Part shown: in pieces, positions 692 to 20,232 of the stretch
Layout of the letters: the number at the start of each line of letters is the position of its first letter
Position numbering within the stretch: the first letter of the stretch is position 1
Assembly: GCA_024401915.1 (NCBI GenBank)
Contig: JAKSKA010000003.1
Location: 1-22,475, forward strand
Length of the DNA stretch: 22,475 bases
Direction of reading: 5' to 3'
Source of the DNA: Bacteroidales bacterium
GTDB taxonomy: Bacteria > Bacteroidota > Bacteroidia > Bacteroidales > UBA932
The notes under the pieces: model-generated
Seen by the model: only the letters and a program-made list of their open reading frames with translations
Databases searched by the model: none
Told to the model about the DNA's origin: nothing
Position numbers and translations under genes: made by a program

Positions 692-724
692 AAACAGCCT
701 TGCAGGTACCTACAAAGCTGTTTT
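692..724 (-). terminator. Rho-independent terminator after tRNA-Leu
   Basis: An inverted repeat reads AAACAGCCTTGCAGGTA then TACCTACAAAGCTGTTT on the plus strand: 17-nt arms with two mismatches that are G.U pairs in one RNA orientation, meeting at GGTACC. On the minus strand it lies 5 nt after the discriminator base of the tRNA and is followed by a T-rich run (TTTCTGTTTTTCT). On the plus strand it is followed by seven Ts, so it could also stop transcription coming the other way. It fits as the end of the tRNA-Leu transcript. Confidence 0.75.
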
Positions 725-779
725 TTTGTGCCTCGGATGAGACTCGAACTCACACGGACATTGCTGCCCAAGGGATTTT

Positions 780-1506
780 CTTACCACTATGGCTTTCGCC
801 ACCTTAACGTTTGTGGTCCGGACTATTCCTTCACCTTGACTTTCGTTTTAGGTGTGTCGTGTCTAGTCTCTGCACCTTCCTTCATATTTTGAAGGCTTGG
901 CTCAAGATTACCATCGGCTTTACCCGTTAAGGCTTCCTTGAATTTACGACATTCTACTTCTCTCTTTTCAGAGCGAGCACTCAATGCTGCTCTCCCTCGA
1001 TAATATTTTGTAAGCGCATGGCAATTTGGACAAATTAATTGAAGGTTTTCAAGTCTGTTGTCCGTGTTGACACCGTTAATATGGTGAATTTCAAGAGGAA
1101 TGGGCTTCTCCATCCATTCGGACAACCCGCAACTTTCGCAAAATGAGATGTGTTTGAGACGTTTATATCGCTCTCGCAATCTCCAGGAACAAGTATAATT
1201 TGAGTTTTCAATAAAAATATCCTTATTCTCAATTGCTTTTTGTGGTTTGAAGGCTAATCCAACATTCCACCCTTGTCCAGTGAAATGAGAAATATCAATA
1301 TTGTTTTCAGAAATCAATTTCTTGATTGTCTTATAGTTTCCGCCAACTGGTCTTAAGCCAAGTTGCCTTAAAACTCCAGCTATTGACAGATTCTCTTCCG
1401 CTGCTTTGCGTATATCCTCAATATTGTACTTAACTCTTTTCATAATGAGAAGGCAAGGTAAGCACAAATTATCTATTACAAAAATATTATTTCAAAGAGC
1501 GTGTCT
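780..1506 (-). ncRNA. Group I intron (probable IC3) in tRNA-Leu(UAA)
   Basis: This self-splicing intron candidate is 727 nt long and bounded by U34 of the 5' exon and a terminal G (complement of 780). Core elements, in transcript order: P3 5' strand TGTCGT (951-946); P-like strand AATTCAAGGAAGCC (944-931); Q-like strand GGTAATCTTGAGCCAAGCC (912-894), whose CTTGAG pairs with TTCAAG to make P4; R-like strand GGTGCAGAGACTAGAC (876-861); P3 3' strand ACGACA (860-855); P8 arms CACCT and AGGTG; S-like strand GGAATAGTCC (829-820), whose TAGTC pairs perfectly with GACTA of R (P7); then TGGC-GAAA-GCCA (801-790), a GNRA-capped P9-type hairpin. From memory, P, Q, R, S and the GCGAAAGC hairpin closely resemble the Anabaena tRNA-Leu intron, hence IC3. 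P1 with its internal guide and P2 should lie in the first 63 nt, but I could not assign them confidently. An HNH gene fills the segment between the 5' region and the core. Confidence 0.92.
823..1443 (-). CDS. Intron-encoded HNH homing endonuclease
   Basis: The 206-residue protein has an N-terminal helical, DNA-binding-like part (YNIEDIRKAAEENLSIAG, resembling the HTH-like front of phage HNH enzymes) and a central HNH nuclease domain: CESC (Cys102, Cys105), IHHING with His120-His121, and CPNCH (Cys138, Cys141). The two CxxC pairs bind structural zinc and the HH...N residues form the metal-dependent nicking or cutting site. I chose the ATG at 1443; an in-frame TTG 24 bases upstream would only add a Cys/Leu-rich leader. 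It lies wholly within the tRNA-Leu intron and presumably cuts intron-less tRNA-Leu alleles to spread the intron. Its last ~43 residues (after VECRKF), rich in Lys and Glu, are encoded by the ribozyme core itself, so they are probably constrained by RNA structure rather than protein function. Target and cutting activity are inferred. Confidence 0.9.
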   Translation of the reverse strand: MKRVKYNIEDIRKAAEENLSIAGVLRQLGLRPVGGNYKTIKKLISENNIDISHFTGQGWNVGLAFKPQKAIENKDIFIENSNYTCSWRLRERYKRLKHISFCESCGLSEWMEKPIPLEIHHINGVNTDNRLENLQLICPNCHALTKYYRGRAALSARSEKREVECRKFKEALTGKADGNLEPSLQNMKEGAETRHDTPKTKVKVKE

Positions 1507-1559
1507 AAGTCCCTCGTGTCTACCATTCCACCACCAAGGCGGGATTTGTGTCATCCGGG

Positions 1560-4592: not shown

Positions 4593-5894
4593 TCAGAAAT
4601 ACTTGTTCTCCTGACGGTTCAGGGCGATGAAGATGAATATCATCACCGTGAACGCCCAGAGGGATGAGCCGCCGTATGAGAAAAGCGGCAGCGGGATGCC
4701 GATGATGGGCATCAGCCCTATGGTCATACCTATATTGATGAACAGGTGCATGAACAGGCACGAAGCCAGGCAGTAGCCGTAAATCCTCGTGAATGACTCC
4801 CGCGCCTTGTCCGCATCCTCCACTATCCAGAAAATGAGCAGCGAGTAGAGCACTATCACCGCCAGACAGCCCAGGAAGCCCCATTCCTCGCCTACGGTGC
4901 AGAAGATGAAGTCCGTGCTCTGCTCGGGCACGAAGCCGAAAGTGGTCTGCGTGCCGCCCAGGTAGCCCTTGCCGCTGAACCCTCCCGAGCCTATCGCAAT
5001 CATCGACTGGTGGACGTTGTAGCCGAGTCCGCGCGGGTCGTCGACGATGCCGAGCAGCACCTCGATGCGCTTGCGCTGGTGGTCCTGGAGCACGTTGTTG
5101 AATATGAAGCCGGTCGCCAGGATGAGGGCCGCACCGGCGCAGAAGGCCAGAATCGTGTTGCGCACCGCCTCCCTTCTCTGGCTGAGCACCCTGAAGCGCC
5201 GCAGCCTCGGCAGCAGGAACAGCAGGCACACCGCCAGCAGCACGCAAAGCGCCACCCACCAGCTCGTCGTGAGCCGAAGAATGAAGAGCAGTATGGCCAT
5301 CCCGACCATCGTGATCAGCCATCCCGACATCCCTTCCCGGTAGAGGACGAACATAAAGCCCACATAGACCAGTGCGGAGCCGGTCTCCTTCTCGAAGATG
5401 ATGGCCAGCATAGGCAGGGCGATGATGAGCGCCGCCTTGATGAAATCGCGCCTGTCGGAGAGCTTGAAGTTCTGACGGCTCATAACCGCCGCCAGGAACA
5501 GCGATGTCGTGATCTTCGATATCTCGGCAGGCTGGAAACTGATGGGTCCGAAACTGAACCAGGACAGGGAGCCCTTGTGCTCGGTGCCGAGGAACCTGAC
5601 GGCAAAAAGCAGCAGGATCACGATGCCGTAGCCGGGCAGCGCGAGGGCCTCCCAGATTTTCGGAGTCACGACGAAGAGTATCAGGGTCGCCAGCAGCAGC
5701 GCACCTCCCATCCAGACGGCCTGCTTGCCGCTGTTCGCTGAAAAATCAAAGATGGAAGAAGGCTCGGCGCTCTGGACGGCAGCATAGATGTTCACCCATC
5801 CGAAGAGCATTATCAGCAGGAAACAGACCACCAGCCTCCAGTCTACTGAAGACTTGAGGCCTCTCTCGTAAGATCTGTTCCTGACATCCTGCAT
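4593..5894 (-). CDS. rodA: RodA, SEDS peptidoglycan glycosyltransferase
   Basis: RodA polymerises lipid II into glycan strands in the elongasome, paired with PBP2. The 433-residue protein has about ten hydrophobic spans and the conserved SEDS block: YNVHQSMIAIGSGGFSGKG, then GGTQTTFGFVPEQSTDFIF, in which Asp328 corresponds to the essential periplasmic aspartate of RodA (Asp262 in E. coli), followed by VGEEWGFLG. The C-terminal IGLMPIIGIPLPLFSYGGSS is also canonical. It is somewhat longer than E. coli RodA (about 370) because of an extra region with two hydrophobic helices and an Arg-rich segment (RLRRFRVLSQRREAVR) before the catalytic block. It is last in the mreBCD-mrdA-rodA cluster, starting 1 nt after the mrdA stop, and its own stop directly touches the stop of the convergent lipoprotein gene, leaving no room for a terminator. 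Confidence 0.96.
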   Translation of the reverse strand: MQDVRNRSYERGLKSSVDWRLVVCFLLIMLFGWVNIYAAVQSAEPSSIFDFSANSGKQAVWMGGALLLATLILFVVTPKIWEALALPGYGIVILLLFAVRFLGTEHKGSLSWFSFGPISFQPAEISKITTSLFLAAVMSRQNFKLSDRRDFIKAALIIALPMLAIIFEKETGSALVYVGFMFVLYREGMSGWLITMVGMAILLFILRLTTSWWVALCVLLAVCLLFLLPRLRRFRVLSQRREAVRNTILAFCAGAALILATGFIFNNVLQDHQRKRIEVLLGIVDDPRGLGYNVHQSMIAIGSGGFSGKGYLGGTQTTFGFVPEQSTDFIFCTVGEEWGFLGCLAVIVLYSLLIFWIVEDADKARESFTRIYGYCLASCLFMHLFINIGMTIGLMPIIGIPLPLFSYGGSSLWAFTVMIFIFIALNRQENKYF

Positions 5895-5895
5895 A

Positions 5896-7719
5896 TCAAT
5901 ATAATCTTGTGTTCAACACCCTCTGCTCCACGTCCTTCCTTTCGTCGCAGATGCTCCCGTTGAGGTATTTCTCGACCATCAGGGACGCGATGGGCACCGC
6001 CCAGGCGGCTCCGAATCCCGCATTCTCGACGTACGCGGCCACGGCGATGCGGGGATTCTCGCGGGGAGCGAAGCAGATGAAAACGGAGTGGTCCTTGCCG
6101 TGGGGGTTCTGCGCCGTTCCCGTCTTCCCGCAAACCACGATGCCGGGGATCTGTGCTCCGAACGCCGTCCCGCCTGCGGAACCGCCGCCGTTGACAGCCA
6201 TATACATACCGTCGACAGCCGTCTCGAAATGGGCACGGTCCACCATAGTGAAATGCTTTTCGTGATATTTCGGATCAATCTCCAGTCCCGGTGAGTCCTT
6301 CACGATATGTGGGATGTAATAGTAGCCGCGGTTGGCCATAGTTGCGGCAAGATTGGCAATCTGGAGCGGTGTGGCGCCGATTTCCCCCTGACCGATGGAC
6401 AGGGAGACGATGGTCGGGAAACGCCAGGACCTGCGGTAGATCTTGTCGTAGTATGCCGACGTGGGGATGTTCCCGCCCCTTTCCGAAGGGAAGTCGCTGC
6501 CGAGTTTCTGCCCGAAACCGAAACTGAGCACGTACTCCCTCCATTTGTCGTACGCCTCGTGGAGGTTGTCGTATTGCTTGTTCTCGAGGATGTTCTTCAA
6601 CACATAGCAGAAGTAACCGTTGCAGGAGGTTGCAATCGCATCCTTGAAGGCCAGCGGGGAAGAGTGTGCGTGGCAGCCAAGCTTGTGGCCTTTCGCATAG
6701 GTGTATCCCTTGTCGCAGGGGTACATGTTCGAAGGCTGCAGAACTCCCTCCTGAAGGCCGATCAGGCCGTTTATCAGCTTGAATACCGAACCCGGAGGAT
6801 AGGACGCCTGGACCGTCCTGTTGAACATCGGCTTGTGTTTGTTGCGAGAAATCTCCCCGTAATACTTGCCTATGTTCGAAAGCACGTTGACATTGATTCC
6901 CGGACTGGAGACCATTGACAGGATCTCGCCGGTGGACGGTTCCAGTGCGATTATGCTCCCTATCTTGCCCTCCATAAGCGTCTGACCGTACTGCTGGAGG
7001 CGGGCGTCGATGGTTGTCACGATGTCCTTCCCGGGGACGGCCGGAGTGTCCATTGCACCATCGGCATAGGAGTCCTGCACCCTGTTGCGTGAGTCCCTGA
7101 GGAAGATGTGGTATCCCTTCTCGCCCCTGAGTTCGTTTTCCCTAACGGCTTCAAGACCCGTCTTTCCGATGAAATCGCCGGAACGGTATTCCCCGGGGTG
7201 CTTCTTCATATCGTCGGCATTCACTTCGGATATGTAGCCCAGGAGGTTGCCTCCTGCGTTGAAGGGGTGCTCCCTGAGATTCCTGACCTGGTATCTGAAG
7301 CCCGGGAAGCGGAATTGCTCTTCGGAGAACTTGGCGTAGGTCTCTACCGGCACCTGTTTGAGGAAGACCTCTGTGCGGTAGCCTATCTGGCGCCGGTGTT
7401 CGTAATACCACTTCATCTTCTTCCTGATGAAGTCCGGCTCCACGTCCAGCGCCTCCGCCAGCGCGAGGGTGTCGAAGGGCTTGACCTCCTTTGGCGTCAC
7501 GAGGATGTCGTAGCAGGTGGTGTTACCCACCAGAATCAGGCCGTTGCGGTCGTATATGATGCCCCTGGGCGGATAGATTGCCTCCCTGACCATCGAGTTG
7601 TTGTCGGAGTCGAGCTTGTATTTGTCATCGATGACCTGAATGTGAAAGAGCCTTATCAGGAGCACGATGGCGGCGGCGCCCAGGCCGATCAGCAGCTTGT
7701 TTTTCCTGTTTATCTCCAT
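5896..7719 (-). CDS. mrdA: Penicillin-binding protein 2 (elongation transpeptidase)
   Basis: This class B PBP cross-links new peptidoglycan during side-wall growth and activates RodA. The 607-residue protein has an N-terminal membrane anchor (KLLIGLGAAAIVLLIRLFHI), a dimerisation domain (with YPPRGIIYDRNG and the GYISEV...GDFIGKTGLE region) and a transpeptidase domain with all three active-site motifs: Ser311-x-x-Lys314 in PPGSVFK, Ser365-x-Asn367 in SCNG, and Lys532-Thr-Gly in CGKTGTAQN. Length is typical. It overlaps the end of mreD by 10 bases and is followed 1 nt later by rodA, so the three are very probably co-transcribed. Beta-lactams of the mecillinam type would act here by family knowledge. 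Confidence 0.97.
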   Translation of the reverse strand: MEINRKNKLLIGLGAAAIVLLIRLFHIQVIDDKYKLDSDNNSMVREAIYPPRGIIYDRNGLILVGNTTCYDILVTPKEVKPFDTLALAEALDVEPDFIRKKMKWYYEHRRQIGYRTEVFLKQVPVETYAKFSEEQFRFPGFRYQVRNLREHPFNAGGNLLGYISEVNADDMKKHPGEYRSGDFIGKTGLEAVRENELRGEKGYHIFLRDSRNRVQDSYADGAMDTPAVPGKDIVTTIDARLQQYGQTLMEGKIGSIIALEPSTGEILSMVSSPGINVNVLSNIGKYYGEISRNKHKPMFNRTVQASYPPGSVFKLINGLIGLQEGVLQPSNMYPCDKGYTYAKGHKLGCHAHSSPLAFKDAIATSCNGYFCYVLKNILENKQYDNLHEAYDKWREYVLSFGFGQKLGSDFPSERGGNIPTSAYYDKIYRRSWRFPTIVSLSIGQGEIGATPLQIANLAATMANRGYYYIPHIVKDSPGLEIDPKYHEKHFTMVDRAHFETAVDGMYMAVNGGGSAGGTAFGAQIPGIVVCGKTGTAQNPHGKDHSVFICFAPRENPRIAVAAYVENAGFGAAWAVPIASLMVEKYLNGSICDERKDVEQRVLNTRLY

Positions 7720-8231
7720 CTGCCCCTCTCCTCGTAAGTCAAAAGTCCCGTGATGAAGAAGGAAACAGTCGTGCTGAGCAGCAGCGAGAGCACGAACTTG
7801 ACGAGATTGAACCAGAACGGACGTGTCCCGGCCCCGTCAAGCCACAGATAGATGACGAGATACGCCGCAGTGGCGAAGATGATGCCGAGCAGCACCTTGC
7901 CGGAACCCTGTCTTGCCAGGGAAATATTTTCGGCCCTGGCGAACACCTCCTGGCCGAACACCAGCCTGACGATGCCCACCCTGGCCATTCCTATCGGCAC
8001 CAGCGCCGCCGTAGTGAGTCCGAGCTGCCCGTCGGAGAAGAAATCGACGGCGAAGCCTATGATGAAGGCCATCACGGTTGAGAATATGGTCCCTTTCGTG
8101 ACAGACAGGAAAAGGATCATCGCGGGCAGGTAGCAGAGCACGAGGTACTGCGAGAAGTTGAAGAAATTGTTCAGCAGTACCTGTGCAACCACGAGGATGC
8201 AGCAGATAAGGAAGTAACCGGGCCTGTTCAT
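7710..8231 (-). CDS. mreD: MreD, rod-shape-determining membrane protein
   Basis: The 173-residue integral membrane protein has about five hydrophobic spans (for example YFLICCILVVAQVLLNNFF, AMILFLSVTKGTIFSTVMAF, FVLSLLLSTTVSFFITGLL) and lies between mreC and the PBP2 gene. MreD sequences diverge strongly, so the call rests on size, topology and position. The patterns IGFAVDFFSDGQLGL and LTTAALVPIGMARV match the MreD style in Bacteroidales. It starts inside the mreC stop (4-base overlap) and its own end overlaps mrdA by 10 bases. It works with MreC to link cytoplasmic MreB filaments to the wall synthases. Confidence 0.88.
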   Translation of the reverse strand: MNRPGYFLICCILVVAQVLLNNFFNFSQYLVLCYLPAMILFLSVTKGTIFSTVMAFIIGFAVDFFSDGQLGLTTAALVPIGMARVGIVRLVFGQEVFARAENISLARQGSGKVLLGIIFATAAYLVIYLWLDGAGTRPFWFNLVKFVLSLLLSTTVSFFITGLLTYEERGRWR

Positions 8232-9064
8232 CTCAAATCCTCCTCTTCGCTGTTCTCAAGGTTCTCTATCTTGCCCCTTTCCGGGTTTTCCACTATCGTG
8301 ACATAGCGAAGCGTGGAGAAATCCTGGAAGAAGATGACGTCGGTGTTGTTGGTTACTCCGTCGGCCACGTGTGTGTCTCCTGTGACGCCAATCGGCAGGT
8401 CGGGCGGGAACACGGACGAGAAGCCGCTCGTGACCACCGTGTCCCCGGGCTCTATGCTGCAGTGCATAGGGATGTCCTTCAGGATTCCGCGGTTGCTGTG
8501 GATACCGTCCCACACCACCGGGGCGACGATGCCCGTCTTTCCTATCCTGGCGCTGATGCTCGTCTTGGTGTTCATTATCGTCAGCCCGTAGCTGTAGTGC
8601 TCGTCCACCGCGCAGACCGTGCCCACGACGCCCTTGTCGGCGATGATGCCGCTGTGGGGCTTGACCCCGTCCTCGCTGCCCTTGTTGAGGATGATGTAGT
8701 TGTGGGATGAGTTGCGGCTAATCTTTATCACGGTCGCCGGGATGGAGATGAAGCCCCAGTTGCGGTCGCTGACCACTGAATTCCTTTCGGTTTCAGCGTC
8801 CGCCGCGGCCCTGTATGCCTTGAGCTCCTCGTTGAGGCGGAAGTTCTCCTCAGCGAGCTCGCGGTTCTGTTTTTCGAGCCTGAAGTGGTTGCGTACAGTC
8901 TCTCCGGACCCCCAGAGCACAGCGAGGGTCTTGTGGGAAAACCGGTTTATCCAGATGTTCTGGAGAGTGGAACTGCTCTTCAGCATAGCAAGCGCAGCAA
9001 TCTCCAAAATAATGAAGACTGCTGCGTTCAAAGCCCATTTCCAGAGTCCGGATTCCTTTTGCAT
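8228..9064 (-). CDS. mreC: MreC, rod-shape-determining periplasmic protein
   Basis: The 278-residue protein has one N-terminal membrane span (ALNAAVFIILEIAALAML), a coiled-coil stretch (LEKQNRELAEENFRLNEELK) and the MreC beta-barrel core, with signatures NYIILNKGSEDGVKPHSGII, GVVGTV, and DTVVTSGFSSVFPPDLPIG. It bridges MreB/MreD to PBP2 and stimulates the RodA-PBP2 pair. I chose the ATG at 9064-9062 (MQKESGLWKWALN), which overlaps the mreB stop as ATGA; an open frame extends 48 bases further into mreB, but that extension has no MreC-like content. The acidic tail (ENLENSEEEDLR) overlaps the mreD start. Confidence 0.94.
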   Translation of the reverse strand: MQKESGLWKWALNAAVFIILEIAALAMLKSSSTLQNIWINRFSHKTLAVLWGSGETVRNHFRLEKQNRELAEENFRLNEELKAYRAAADAETERNSVVSDRNWGFISIPATVIKISRNSSHNYIILNKGSEDGVKPHSGIIADKGVVGTVCAVDEHYSYGLTIMNTKTSISARIGKTGIVAPVVWDGIHSNRGILKDIPMHCSIEPGDTVVTSGFSSVFPPDLPIGVTGDTHVADGVTNNTDVIFFQDFSTLRYVTIVENPERGKIENLENSEEEDLR

Positions 9065-10089
9065 CAGCGCATCAGGAATGAGTATTGTCCGGTGTGCTTC
9101 AGGGCGTCGCAAGTGCCTCTCGCCACTGCGTGGAGCGGATCCTCGGCGACGTGGAACTGGATGTTCACCTTGTCCGTGCAGCGTTGTGCGAGTCCGCGCA
9201 GCAGGGCGCCGGCGCCGGAGAGGCAGATGCCGTTCTTCACGATGTCGGAGTACAGCTCAGGAGGGGTGTTCTCGAGCACGTGGAGGATCGAGGTCTCGAT
9301 CTTGGCCACCGACTTGTCGAGGCAGTGCGCGATTTCCTGATGGGTGATGCGGGCCTCCACGGGGTGGGCCGTCATAAAGTTCGGGCCGTGGACCACGCAG
9401 GGCTCCGGGTCCTCTTCGTCGAGGTCCGGGATCACGGCGCCGACCGCAATCTTTATCTGCTCCGCGGTGATTTCACCGACGCGGATGTTGTGCTGCTGAC
9501 GCAGGTACTGCTGGATGTCGGTCGTGAACACGTCACCGGCCGTACGTATGCTGTCCTGCTGCACGAGGCCGCCGAGCGAGATGACTGCGATCTCGGTGGT
9601 GCCGCCGCCTATGTCGACGACCATATTGCCCTGGGGCGCTTCGACGTCGAGGCCGATTCCGAGCGCAGAAGCCATAGGCTCGAAAATCAGATACACGTCA
9701 CGGCCGCCTGCGTGCTCCGAGGAGTCGCGCACGGCTCGTATCTCGACTTCGGTAGAACCCGAAGGGATGCCGACAACCATCTTGATGTTGGGGGTGAGAA
9801 GACGGCTGCGGCGGTTATTCACCTGCTTTATGAAGCCGCGGATCATCATTTCCGCAGCGTTGAAGTCTGCAATCACTCCGTCGCGCAGAGGACGTATGGT
9901 CCTGATTCCGGGATTGGTCCTGTCGTGCATCAGCTTGGCCTTCTGGCCTATTGCAATGCACTTCTGCGTCATATTGTCCACTGCGACGATACTGGGTTCG
10001 TCAAGCACTATCTGCCCGTTCTGGTAGATGATGGTGTTCGCAGTGCCGAGGTCGATCGCGAGTTCCTGGTTCAAGAATGAAAATGCCAT
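9064..10089 (-). CDS. mreB: MreB, actin-like cell-shape protein
   Basis: This 341-residue cytoplasmic actin homologue forms membrane-associated filaments that orient wall synthesis. Visible ATPase motifs: phosphate 1 IDLGTANTIIY near the N-terminus, MVVGIPSG, the phosphate 2 loop VVDIGGGTTEIAVISLGG, and the adenosine motif LSGAGALLRGL near the C-terminus. The N-terminal MAFSFLNQELAIDLG has the short hydrophobic start typical of Bacteroidota MreB. It is the first gene of the mre cluster and faces ispD across a 76-base region holding the divergent promoter. The transcript probably runs through rodA. Confidence 0.98.
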   Translation of the reverse strand: MAFSFLNQELAIDLGTANTIIYQNGQIVLDEPSIVAVDNMTQKCIAIGQKAKLMHDRTNPGIRTIRPLRDGVIADFNAAEMMIRGFIKQVNNRRSRLLTPNIKMVVGIPSGSTEVEIRAVRDSSEHAGGRDVYLIFEPMASALGIGLDVEAPQGNMVVDIGGGTTEIAVISLGGLVQQDSIRTAGDVFTTDIQQYLRQQHNIRVGEITAEQIKIAVGAVIPDLDEEDPEPCVVHGPNFMTAHPVEARITHQEIAHCLDKSVAKIETSILHVLENTPPELYSDIVKNGICLSGAGALLRGLAQRCTDKVNIQFHVAEDPLHAVARGTCDALKHTGQYSFLMR

Positions 10090-19273: not shown

Positions 19274-19315
19274 GGATTCGTACACACGCCAGTCACTCGC
19301 GTGTGTACGAATCCC
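19273..19315 (+). terminator. 17-bp perfect hairpin at lipoprotein stop
   Basis: GGGATTCGTACACACGC (19273-19289) and GCGTGTGTACGAATCCC (19299-19315) are perfect inverted copies with a 9-base loop. The left arm begins at the last base of the stop codon. There is no T-run after it, so it is not a classical intrinsic terminator, but it may end or protect the mRNA, or mark the boundary where the AT-rich toxin-antitoxin segment joined. Confidence 0.45.
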
Positions 19316-19358
19316 GCAACTTATAAGTTGCGAAATTTAATTGTTTGTTTTACCTTTG
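19315..19358 (+). promoter_or_regulatory. Promoter with palindromic operator of the TA-like pair
   Basis: A full Bacteroidota-style promoter is visible: TTG (19328-19330), 20 bases, then TACCTTTG (19351-19358), predicting a start near 19365. The perfect 18-bp palindrome CGCAACTTATAAGTTGCG (19315-19332) covers the TTG. Since the second gene of the pair encodes an XRE-type repressor-like protein, this palindrome is a good operator candidate for autoregulation; that role is inferred. Confidence 0.6.
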
Positions 19359-19372
19359 TATTGAAATTTATT

Positions 19373-19924
19373 GTGAAGTTTGTTCGAAGTATCCCAGGAA
19401 GTAATCATTTATGGGCAGTTAAAGAAGAAGGAAAGGACACTGATGAGCTTTCGCTCCTATTTAGGCAATGGTGTGATTTTAATTATTTACTTGATTTTTT
19501 CTTTGCAAACCAGGATGATCTGAAACACTTTTTTAGAATTGAAAAAGTCAGCGATGCTATTAGGGATACAATGGAAGATGCCAGTGATTTGGAACAGTGT
19601 ATTTTAGACTTTCCATATACGGAAGAACTGGACGGGTTGTTCCATCCGCTCAGTCTCGCGGACAACAGGGCACATGAGTTGACGCGCGAGAAAGCAAGGA
19701 ATTGGAATCGGCCTCAGCACCCAAGTTGGCTACGGGTTTATGCTATACGAATGGAGCCGAATGTTTATGTTGTAACAGGAGGCGCGATTAAACTGACGGC
19801 GACTATGCAGGAACGGGAACATACTCAAAAGGAACTAGATAAGTTGAATGCTTGTCGTGATTTTCTGAAGCAAAATGGAGTATTTGATCAGGATAGCTTT
19901 GTAGATTTATTTGAGGAGAGATAA
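19373..19924 (+). CDS. Putative toxin of a HigBA-like pair
   Basis: The 183-residue protein has no clear catalytic motif, but its C-terminal part (LRVYAIRMEPNVYVVTGGAIKL followed by TATMQEREHTQKELDKL) resembles the RelE/HigB toxin ending, in which a strand, a Gly-containing turn and a Lys/Thr-rich segment precede a helix. The N-terminal ~90 residues (FRQWCDFNYLLDFFFANQDDL) are acidic and aromatic. I chose GTG at 19373 (then KFVRSIPGSNHLW), the first good start after the predicted transcription start; an upstream in-frame start at 19301 lies before the promoter. Base use is more AT-rich than the neighbouring core genes, as expected for a transferred module. The toxin role is inferred from the partner and the order toxin-then-antitoxin, as in higBA. 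Confidence 0.55.
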   Translation: MKFVRSIPGSNHLWAVKEEGKDTDELSLLFRQWCDFNYLLDFFFANQDDLKHFFRIEKVSDAIRDTMEDASDLEQCILDFPYTEELDGLFHPLSLADNRAHELTREKARNWNRPQHPSWLRVYAIRMEPNVYVVTGGAIKLTATMQEREHTQKELDKLNACRDFLKQNGVFDQDSFVDLFEER

Positions 19925-19926
19925 AT

Positions 19927-20232
19927 ATGAAACAAAAGACATTGAAATTCCTGGAGGCTCATCAGAGTGAGACGCCTTCAACCTTTACAGAAGATGCCAA
20001 ATGGCGTCGGGAGAATGAGGTGTGGCTTAAATGGTCACGTGGCGTCGCGATGTCTATTGTTGACTATATGCAAGAGAATGGACTGAGCCGTTCGGATGTA
20101 GCGTCCAAACTCGGAGTGTCTCCTCAATATGTCAGCCGCATCCTTTCCGGCAATACCAATTTTTCCTTCAAGAGCGTTGCGGATATAGAAGGGAAACTCG
20201 GGATATCGTGTATGAAGTTTGCTCTGGCGTAA
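19927..20232 (+). CDS. XRE-family antitoxin / DNA-binding protein
   Basis: The 101-residue protein starts 2 bases after the putative toxin stop. Residues about 55-95 form a helix-turn-helix of the XRE/Cro type: IVDYMQENGLSRSDVASKLG, VSPQYVSRILSGNTNFS, then a short tail KSVADIEGKLGI. The N-terminal ~45 residues (SETPSTFTEDAKWRRENEVW) would be the part that embraces a toxin in HigA-like proteins. It probably represses its own promoter through the palindrome at 19315-19332. Confidence 0.8.
   Translation: MKQKTLKFLEAHQSETPSTFTEDAKWRRENEVWLKWSRGVAMSIVDYMQENGLSRSDVASKLGVSPQYVSRILSGNTNFSFKSVADIEGKLGISCMKFALA

Follow-up and report, generated by a model that had tools for sequence, protein, structure and literature searches.

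Among known systems, the one most like the intron described here is the group I (IC3) intron of cyanobacterial and plastid tRNA-Leu(UAA), which we take to lie at the U34|A35 site. To our knowledge it is the textbook 'ancient' intron, with no enzyme known for its spread, and it lacks an endonuclease gene, whereas the intron considered here has an HNH gene in what is predicted to be its P1 loop. Horizontal transfer of the tRNA-Leu(UAA) intron in cyanobacteria was reportedly found by Rudi and colleagues in 2002. I-SspI is an endonuclease encoded in the tRNA-fMet intron of Synechocystis. The stretch of DNA analyzed here, called the window in what follows, is positions 1 to 22,475 of contig JAKSKA010000003.1 from a Bacteroidales bacterium, and its whole length is 22,475 nucleotides (nt). 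On its minus strand a tRNA-Leu(UAA) gene is split by an insert of 727 nt. We read the insert as a mobile group I intron that carries an HNH gene in its predicted P1 loop and would splice itself out of the RNA and spread by HNH-driven homing, and we put the probability of this reading at roughly 0.8.

Several published systems frame the comparison. The accessible text of PMC6083498 describes, in cyanophages, the free-standing endonuclease F-CphI beside the intron-bearing gene psbA, where the intron blocks cutting. The accessible part of PMC8450103 reports 36 genomes in which an fMet or Ile2 tRNA was missed by tRNAscan-SE owing to group I introns, and that part makes no mention of tRNA-Leu(UAA) in Bacteroidota. 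As far as their accessible text goes, a 2014 review had all phage introns then known in protein genes (PMC3984707), and a 2021 paper has group I introns in some tRNAs of its genomes, nearly all of them from the candidate phyla radiation (PMC8172020). The open-licence literature, at the level of titles and the starts of abstracts, yielded no paper about introns of tRNA-Leu in Bacteroidota, nor any about phage tRNA genes with group I introns.

The split tRNA gene and its ribozyme

The split tRNA-Leu(UAA) gene is confirmed. ARAGORN reads the joined exons (1540-1507 plus 779-729, minus strand) as tRNA-Leu(taa) with a few wobble pairs, so that the wording of an earlier note, made from the letters of the window alone, which had called this a perfect class II tRNA-Leu, is slightly strong; the coordinates it gave are correct (34 nt, 727 nt and 51 nt, the insert starting after U34 and ending in G). 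It had also noted that neither half is a tRNA alone and expected that a scanner would miss the gene, and indeed ARAGORN finds 0 tRNAs in the unjoined window and, with introns allowed, miscalls the split gene as tRNA-Ser(aga). The host is likely an uncultured gut bacterium of the Bacteroidales, the order that the note had supposed: the closest TopA protein is from a rumen Bacteroidia metagenome-assembled genome (MAG) at 68-69%, and the relatives of the HNH protein come mostly from rumen and gut Bacteroidales MAGs. The intron itself is foreign in make-up, with a GC content of 39% versus 55%.

The assignment to group I introns bears out under the search that the earlier note had proposed. Rfam RF00028 (Intron_gpI) matches 1021-803 on the minus strand at 55.2 bits, above the curated cut-off of 50 bits (E = 1e-11). 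RF00028 misses relatives, among them the introns of genomes G007, G008, G009 and G020 from the B-type lineage described below, which give no match at E ≤ 0.001 with at most 60 candidates scored in each, and we therefore built our own model, R1. On 21 related introns of the window's own lineage, the A-type, the structure P3-P9 has 97.4% of its cells paired, against 26-45% in slid controls, with P9 the weakest helix at 81.9%. Changes on both sides of a pair occur in 44 cells versus 14 in shuffles, and in 8 pairs versus 5.0. The P3, P4, P7 and P8 pairings and the GAAA-capped hairpin that the note had drawn for the window thus hold across these introns. The motifs GAGCCAAGCC/GGAAGGUGCAGAGACU, which we take to be those of class IC3, match the window intron by eye. 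The ribozyme is predicted to splice itself by guanosine initiation.

A scan of species genomes gave 69 loci, mostly in rumen and gut Bacteroidales MAGs, and the window together with the 49 of them that have both splice sites forms a set of 50 introns, locus L050 having been dropped for a false exon pairing. All 50 have the exon end ACTT, GAGTGC somewhere in the intron and a terminal G, and in all 50 the guide sequence offers the U-G pair at the 5' splice site; the exon search pattern asked for CTT with errors allowed, which partly fixes the exon end, while the final G was free.

The HNH gene in the predicted P1 loop

What the earlier note overlooked is the HNH gene at 1443-823 and the P1 extension that surrounds it, so that its description of the insert as a group I intron was right and incomplete; a gene for a homing-type endonuclease inside the insert alters the mechanism. 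The window protein scores above cut-off for PF13392 and PF01844 and matches phrog_10822 at E = 3e-43 over residues 1-168. The open reading frame (ORF) lies between the 5' splice site and the guide sequence GAGU, which is placed after the nuclease part, and the gene would therefore sit in the loop of P1. Its last ~53 codons traverse the guide sequence, P2 and P3-P6 and run into P7-P8, and the P7 3' strand UAGUC opens with the ORF's stop codon TAG. The AlphaFold model has a predicted local distance difference test (pLDDT) score of 71-95 in blocks of residues 1-150 and below 50 for nearly all of residues 153-206.

In the A-type introns with an HNH gene the frame is open through FTGQGW and beyond in 29 of the 29 examined (there are 30, L022 having been missed by the filter), and 28 have the HNH motif. 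The median proportions of nonsynonymous and synonymous differences (pN and pS) in the HNH part are 0.216 and 0.822, and the ratio of the corresponding rates (dN/dS) is 0.087, for which only 10 pairs had a usable dS. In the relatives the gene is intact and under purifying selection. The tail from the guide sequence to P6 has a pS of 0.244 and a dN/dS of 0.32; the low pS together with the pLDDT below 50 indicates that it is constrained mainly as RNA.

The leader of the HNH-bearing A-type introns, GYUCUUU..AUAAUUAUUUGU, pairs with codons for the conserved HNH-part end, as two helices of a predicted P1 extension that would close a loop of ~500 nt. In 27 of the 29 introns (L016 and L017 were left out) 94.9% of the cells are paired, against 44-62% in slid versions, and 5 cells are changed on both sides versus 1.5 in shuffles. 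The window leader deviates from the other introns, and its 3' strand deviates to match. Two B-type introns, L040 and L042, have a similar helix over the HNH start codon. A promoter inside the intron at the conserved CUUUGAAAUAAUUAUUUG was considered as a candidate and rejected; a sigma-70-like match is present there, and the stretch turned out to base-pair with the HNH gene's end.

On the reading that we prefer, transcription would be followed by the folding of P1 and its extension, by self-splicing and by the restoration of tRNA-Leu(UAA), with the extension, whose 3' strand is the last HNH codons, carrying the 5' splice site to the guide sequence across ~500 nt of ORF. The HNH protein, translated separately, would cut intronless tRNA-Leu(UAA), repair would copy the intron in, and the intron would protect its own gene copy from the enzyme. 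Ribosomes translating the gene would pass P1, the guide sequence, P2 and P3-P6 before they terminate in P7. To do so they would have to melt P1 and the core, so that translation and splicing should exclude each other, and enzyme synthesis and splicing would compete on one RNA. UUA makes up 1 of 374 leucine codons in ten window genes, and a slow supply of the tRNA may for that reason be tolerated by the host; across 29 HNH genes it accounts for 130 of 574 in the open frames, and the enzyme would thus need the tRNA that its own intron interrupts. Phages with tRNA arrays would carry such introns and exchange them with Bacteroidales.

Table 1. Features of the split tRNA-Leu(UAA) gene and its surroundings in the window, in order of transcription.
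Feature	Position	Strand	Basis or remark
tRNA-Leu(UAA) 5' exon	1507..1540	-	34 nt, ...GGGACTT, U34 last; ARAGORN on joined exons
Group I intron, A-type	780..1506	-	727 nt, first letter A, last G; boundaries of relatives from empty-site alleles
Predicted P1 extension helix 1, 5' strand GCUCUUU	1494..1500	-	pairing and comparison across introns
Predicted P1 extension helix 2, 5' strand AUAAUAUUUUUGUA	1477..1490	-	pairing and comparison across introns
HNH ORF, 206 amino acids	823..1443	-	ATG 1443-1441 (intron position 64), stop TAG 825-823
HNH domain, residues 102-142	1018..1140	-	most blocks here at AlphaFold pLDDT 93-95
Predicted P1 extension helix 2, 3' strand	1000..1013	-	within codons of the conserved HNH-part end
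Predicted P1 extension helix 1, 3' strand GGAGAGC	989..995	-	pairing and comparison across introns
Internal guide sequence GAGU	979..982	-	intron 525-528; pairs with exon ACUU, U-G at 5' splice site
Catalytic core P3-P9 plus 7 nt of 3' exon	773..957	-	model R1, 209.3 bits, the window being one of its 21 seed rows
P3 5' strand	946..951	-	compensatory U-A to C-G in 6 of 21
P7 5' strand GACUA	864..868	-	Rfam match and 21-intron structure
P3 3' strand	855..860	-	21-intron structure
P7 3' strand UAGUC	821..825	-	its UAG doubles as the ORF stop codon
tRNA-Leu(UAA) 3' exon	729..779	-	51 nt, AAAATCCC...
Terminator-like hairpin with T tail, directly 3' of the tRNA	692..723	-	weak: 1 found versus 1.1 expected in shuffles

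Intron lineages and empty sites

The Bacteroidales introns at this site belong to three lineages, A, B and C, and the HNH gene is inside the intron, just downstream of it, or absent. The A-type has 30 introns with the gene, the window included, and 9 without it, one of which is a 395-nt remnant (L052). The B-type has 6 with the gene, five of them in Prevotellaceae/Bacteroidaceae, and 2 without; the C-type has 2, both without the gene and in Paludibacteraceae; and L043 (Onthovivens) is an intron beyond these classes. The other 20 loci are 7 HNH-bearing ones and 3 more, cut by contig ends, L037 (B-type, 5' exon unmatched), and 9 that are free-standing or unclear (L035, L041, L046, L048, L050, L054, L057, L059, L064).

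Occupied sites and their orthologous empty counterparts, in four comparisons that draw on three empty sites, differ at the U34|A35 junction, exactly so except for A's common to the intron start and the 3' exon; those A's being shared, the final-G rule sets the site at U34|A35, and the insertion site named in the earlier note is supported by these allele pairs. G004, with an HNH intron, and G536, with an intact gene, align upstream over 2413 nt at 96.4% and 531 nt at 91.3%, have nearly identical TopA and 100% identical tRNA exons, differ at the locus by the intron, and are unrelated after the tRNA. G551 and G424 align with G600 at ~81-82% upstream, and G560 with G458 at 80% upstream and 91% over the last 100 nt, each with the same junction. 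Close relatives therefore have intronless alleles, and the intron is optional in the way that an HNH homing endonuclease would have it.

The order-wide search with R1 was weak, and exact patterns were used instead for the family of genome G001. Among 199 genomes sampled from it, the A-type core pattern occurs in 11, and 41 others have an intact tRNA-Leu(UAA); a search with the 5' half (71 of 198) added G442, which is ORF-less, and G584, which has another type, among the 30 loci read. As host marker, DUF456, which adjoins the tRNA in the window, was tried and given up, since it gave only 2 weak matches among the loci, and TopA was used. In a TopA tree of 31 genomes, picked by state and not randomly, and with G012 (HNH remnant) and G013 (HNH downstream) labeled ORF-less, the states HNH, ORF-less and intact need 11 changes, where the minimum is 2, shuffles need 15.0, and 3 of 200 shuffles are as low. 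Occupied, ORF-less and intronless states interleave among close relatives.

Some further loci deserve mention on their own. At L058:2780-3500, downstream of a tRNA-Leu whose intron is ORF-less, there is a partial second copy with the 5' exon end GAGGGACTT, the intron start, the HNH gene and the core to P3, and it resembles a recombination scar. In L263 (G584) the tRNA-Leu(UAA) is split by an insert of 755 nt whose core groups with the B-type. L224 (G275), from the same order, has a 212-nt intron in a tRNA-Ile-like gene at 124.6 bits with R1. The pairs L015 and L300, L298 and L297, L299 and L297, and L302 and L301 are alike up to the tRNA 3' end and then unrelated, the contigs of the last pair ending there; in these four comparisons the tRNA 3' end looks as if it were an integration hot spot.

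Free-standing HNH relatives

Of 1521 candidates, 1397 are relatives of the window HNH protein at E ≤ 0.001. In named phages 208 records have relatives, and only 3 of these records have a place that covers 80% of the query; no relative was found on plasmids, and a sequence search of solved structures gave no close relative. The best fold match, McrA at E = 0.002, is too weak to build on, and NCBIfam matches to ZorE and IscB fall on the HNH part with scores well under cut-off.

HNH relatives also occur as free-standing neighbors of intact tRNA-Leu genes, both in other phyla and in viruses. The ORF abuts one in Hymenobacter (L046), Berkelbacteria (L054), Moranbacteria (L057), Lachnospiraceae (L041) and Pseudonocardia (L048), and in all 5 of these, the loci measured, it overlaps the tRNA by 10-54 nt; neither these five nor 16 other free-standing loci searched have an R1 match (one reaches E = 0.97). 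Among the matches listed there are 33 viral loci, 24 of them free-standing, or 16 after copies are removed. The nearest tRNA is Leu in 14 of these 16, where 6.9 are expected from the make-up of the arrays (p = 7e-6), taking isotypes from the anticodon as ARAGORN reads it, with some of these tRNAs short for Leu. In bacteria it is Leu in 6 of 9 free-standing loci, the next one is Leu in L050 and L064, and none was found for L035. This proximity suggests an endonuclease specific for tRNA-Leu genes. L035 is the nearest outgroup of the A-type HNH clade, and at L035:2850-2880 it adjoins an apparent stub of a tRNA 3' end.

These loci bear on the alternative that survives best, although we think it unlikely: the endonuclease would act mainly outside introns, by intronless or collaborative homing, its place in the P1 loop would be a side branch, and the intron would spread chiefly by reverse splicing. 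Besides the free-standing relatives, it has in its favor six loci (L032, L044, L045, L051, L053, L058) with the HNH gene downstream of a tRNA-Leu that holds an ORF-less intron, the fact that ORF-less introns are common, and the disagreement, detailed below, of the HNH and core trees. Against it, the HNH tree unites the A-type HNH genes in a single clade (100/99) whose members are intron-encoded in 38 cases out of 40 and downstream in the other 2, and the leader fits the ORF end, with which it would form the P1 extension. An intron-bound clade with a matched leader points to a settled intron-encoded state. (L049 was excluded from this tree as too short, and viral copies, L212 and L222 were left out.)

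Introns in viral tRNA genes

Outside Bacteroidales, the nearest relatives found are introns that sit in tRNA genes of viruses. Among the matches listed in IMG/VR contigs, tRNA-Leu(UAA) introns with an HNH gene occur in L190, L191, L193, L195, L096, L114 and L210, with two copies for L191, and the intron of L212 carries a truncated ORF; most of the listed viral tRNA-Leu(UAA) introns sit within tRNA arrays. Nine such viral records were tested, and a large terminase is present in five (L210, L191, L193, L194, L195) and a T4-type capsid Gp23 in three (L210, L193, L194). Of their neighbor proteins, 7 of the 17 scanned match a PHROG. In L190, L191, L193 and L194, and in L043, the frame runs through the core into a stretch that by eye resembles a zinc ribbon or helix-turn-helix; PF18024 and PF04640 are below cut-off there in the two proteins scanned, and R1 places the stretch in the P8 region, where it scores the core in two pieces.

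In the core tree (41 rows including Anabaena, partial core matches dropped), the B-type introns join viral L210 (100/99) and the C-type introns join viral L212 (99/99). L210 and L212 share 28 and 30 nt of the 5' exon and 11 nt of the 3' exon with the window, so that for the B- and C-types the tRNA genes of virus and host could act as a single target; the other six viral exon pairs compared share 4-8 nt (5') and 5-12 nt (3'). Phages are a likely vehicle for the intron. Horizontal spread, one of the two origins that the earlier note had offered, gains from the viral introns at the same site and from the interleaved states.

As to the other, shared ancestry, what the window intron has in common with the cyanobacterial and plastid intron is the site and the core motifs only. 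The window core is 61% identical to a sequence taken as that of one Anabaena intron, which the core tree leaves without a clear placement, and several viral introns, some of them in other tRNAs, are 60-68% identical to it. That the intron is an old vertical relic, with the HNH gene a recent passenger without a role in its spread, seems very unlikely to us. The same gene, what we take to be the same U34|A35 site in plastids, and the similar core motifs speak for it; the interleaving of present, ORF-less and absent states among close relatives speaks against it, as do the presence of three lineages at one site, whose joins to viral introns are strong for two and weak for the third, an HNH gene intact in 29 of 29 and under purifying selection, and the 61% itself.

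Viral contigs hold other introns as well. Group I introns of ~190-260 nt lie in the anticodon loops of other viral tRNAs, whose exact isotypes by ARAGORN are uncertain: L088, L133, L159 and L174 (Asn-like), L111 and L184 (Asp), L147 (His) and L116 (Lys), with further ones in L082, L124 and L185. L096, L114, L116 and L159 each have a second core. At L194:2881-3960 a viral HNH intron sits in an apparent class I tRNA with UUAA in the loop (by eye; ARAGORN makes no call).

Weighing the evidence

As far as sequence comparison reaches, the boundaries, the covarying core, the guide sequence, the final G, the intact HNH gene with its purifying selection in relatives, the intronless alleles and the viral introns at the same site are established; splicing, cutting and the competition between enzyme synthesis and splicing we infer from them. 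A number of results weigh against the reading as a mobile, self-splicing intron with its own endonuclease. For the P1 extension, double-sided changes are seen in only 3 pairs, a number that 33 of 500 shuffles attain as well, and one slid control likewise gives 3 pairs and 4 cells. The ORF length varies from 183 to 215 amino acids across A-type introns, and the far end of the overlap between coding sequence and ribozyme may accordingly be incidental. For the ribozyme, RF00028 is over its cut-off in only 5 of 20 genomes, 19 loci have no match at gathering, including the A-type L058, L060 and L061, and the order-wide R1 search found 3 of 393 genomes under strict filters with 6 candidates scored per genome.

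For the phages, two named-phage relatives that were opened have no tRNA nearby, and the records L212, L190, L096 and L114, which may be fragments, have no capsid or terminase match. The core tree, whose alignment was fitted to the A-type model, joins the A-type with L190, L191, L193 and L194 at only 92/88, below the line for strong support. In the HNH tree the A-type joins bacterial L035 and not L190-194, the B-type joins bacterial and other viral genes and not L210, and the HNH genes linked to the C-type join viral L114 (100/99); with the two trees in disagreement, intron and nuclease gene seem to have been reshuffled.

Lastly, genome G014 has an intact tRNA-Leu(UAA) in addition to one with an ORF-less intron, possibly by binning error or contamination, or possibly as a true second gene. 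The earlier note had asked for a check for a second copy, and run on the relatives it shows no intact tRNA-Leu(UAA) with at most 3 mismatches in 24 of 25 intron-bearing genomes, within the limits set by MAG gaps, and the copy in G014; the same search finds it in 6 of 6 intact genomes. That the gene is dead or misassembled, the insert a decayed element and the cell served by another intact tRNA-Leu(UAA), could draw on G014 and on the rarity of UUA in the window, through which a loss might be tolerated for a while, and we give it scarcely any credence, given the same insertion in 50 introns from many assemblies, exons that fold as a tRNA, the 24 carriers and a core kept with compensatory changes.

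A wider scenario goes beyond the mobile intron itself, and we hold it tentatively, with somewhat more doubt than belief. A phage-borne family of tRNA-Leu-specific HNH enzymes might drive the introns at the tRNA-Leu(UAA) site, passing from free-standing beside tRNA-Leu to beside introns and then inside them; phage arrays might repeatedly seed different lineages into Bacteroidales chromosomes; and the coding sequence, P1 extension and core might share one RNA, so that translation and splicing would be mutually exclusive.

Other features of the window

At 4593-10089 lies a row of what we take, from the translations, to be cell-shape genes (mreB/mreC/mreD, PBP2-like, RodA-like). At 19301-20232 two ORFs lie side by side in a toxin-antitoxin-like layout, and the second of them has a clear HTH_3 domain.

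Comparison with known systems

The insertion site and the ribozyme class were already known. What appears to be new, and we do not claim proof of it, is that the P1 loop of an intron at this site holds an HNH gene, that the states form a series, and that phage tRNA genes carry introns. Here the same site, in another phylum, has free-standing, beside, intron-encoded and lost stages among comparable close relatives, so that a proposed pathway for the birth of mobile introns becomes directly testable at one target. Group I introns are placed in phage tRNA genes, and a tRNA that is required for reading UUA goes missing from the output of a scanner. If the predictions hold, this would be an example of how RNA parasites arise and move between bacteria and phages.

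The window intron is like the cyanobacterial and plastid intron in its tRNA, in what we take to be its site, and in similar core motifs. It differs from the I-SspI system in both tRNA and enzyme, I-SspI being in tRNA-fMet with a fold that we take to be PD-(D/E)XK, while the window enzyme is HNH. For phrog_10822 no target is given in PHROGs, and the family is tied here to tRNA-Leu genes. The collaborative homing layout of F-CphI and psbA, as the accessible part of PMC6083498 describes it, is matched, from sequence alone, in the six loci with an HNH gene downstream of an ORF-less intron; in the window the HNH gene is inside the intron. Unlike F-CphI, one nuclease family is found here also inside the intron and beside intronless tRNA-Leu, in several stages at one target.
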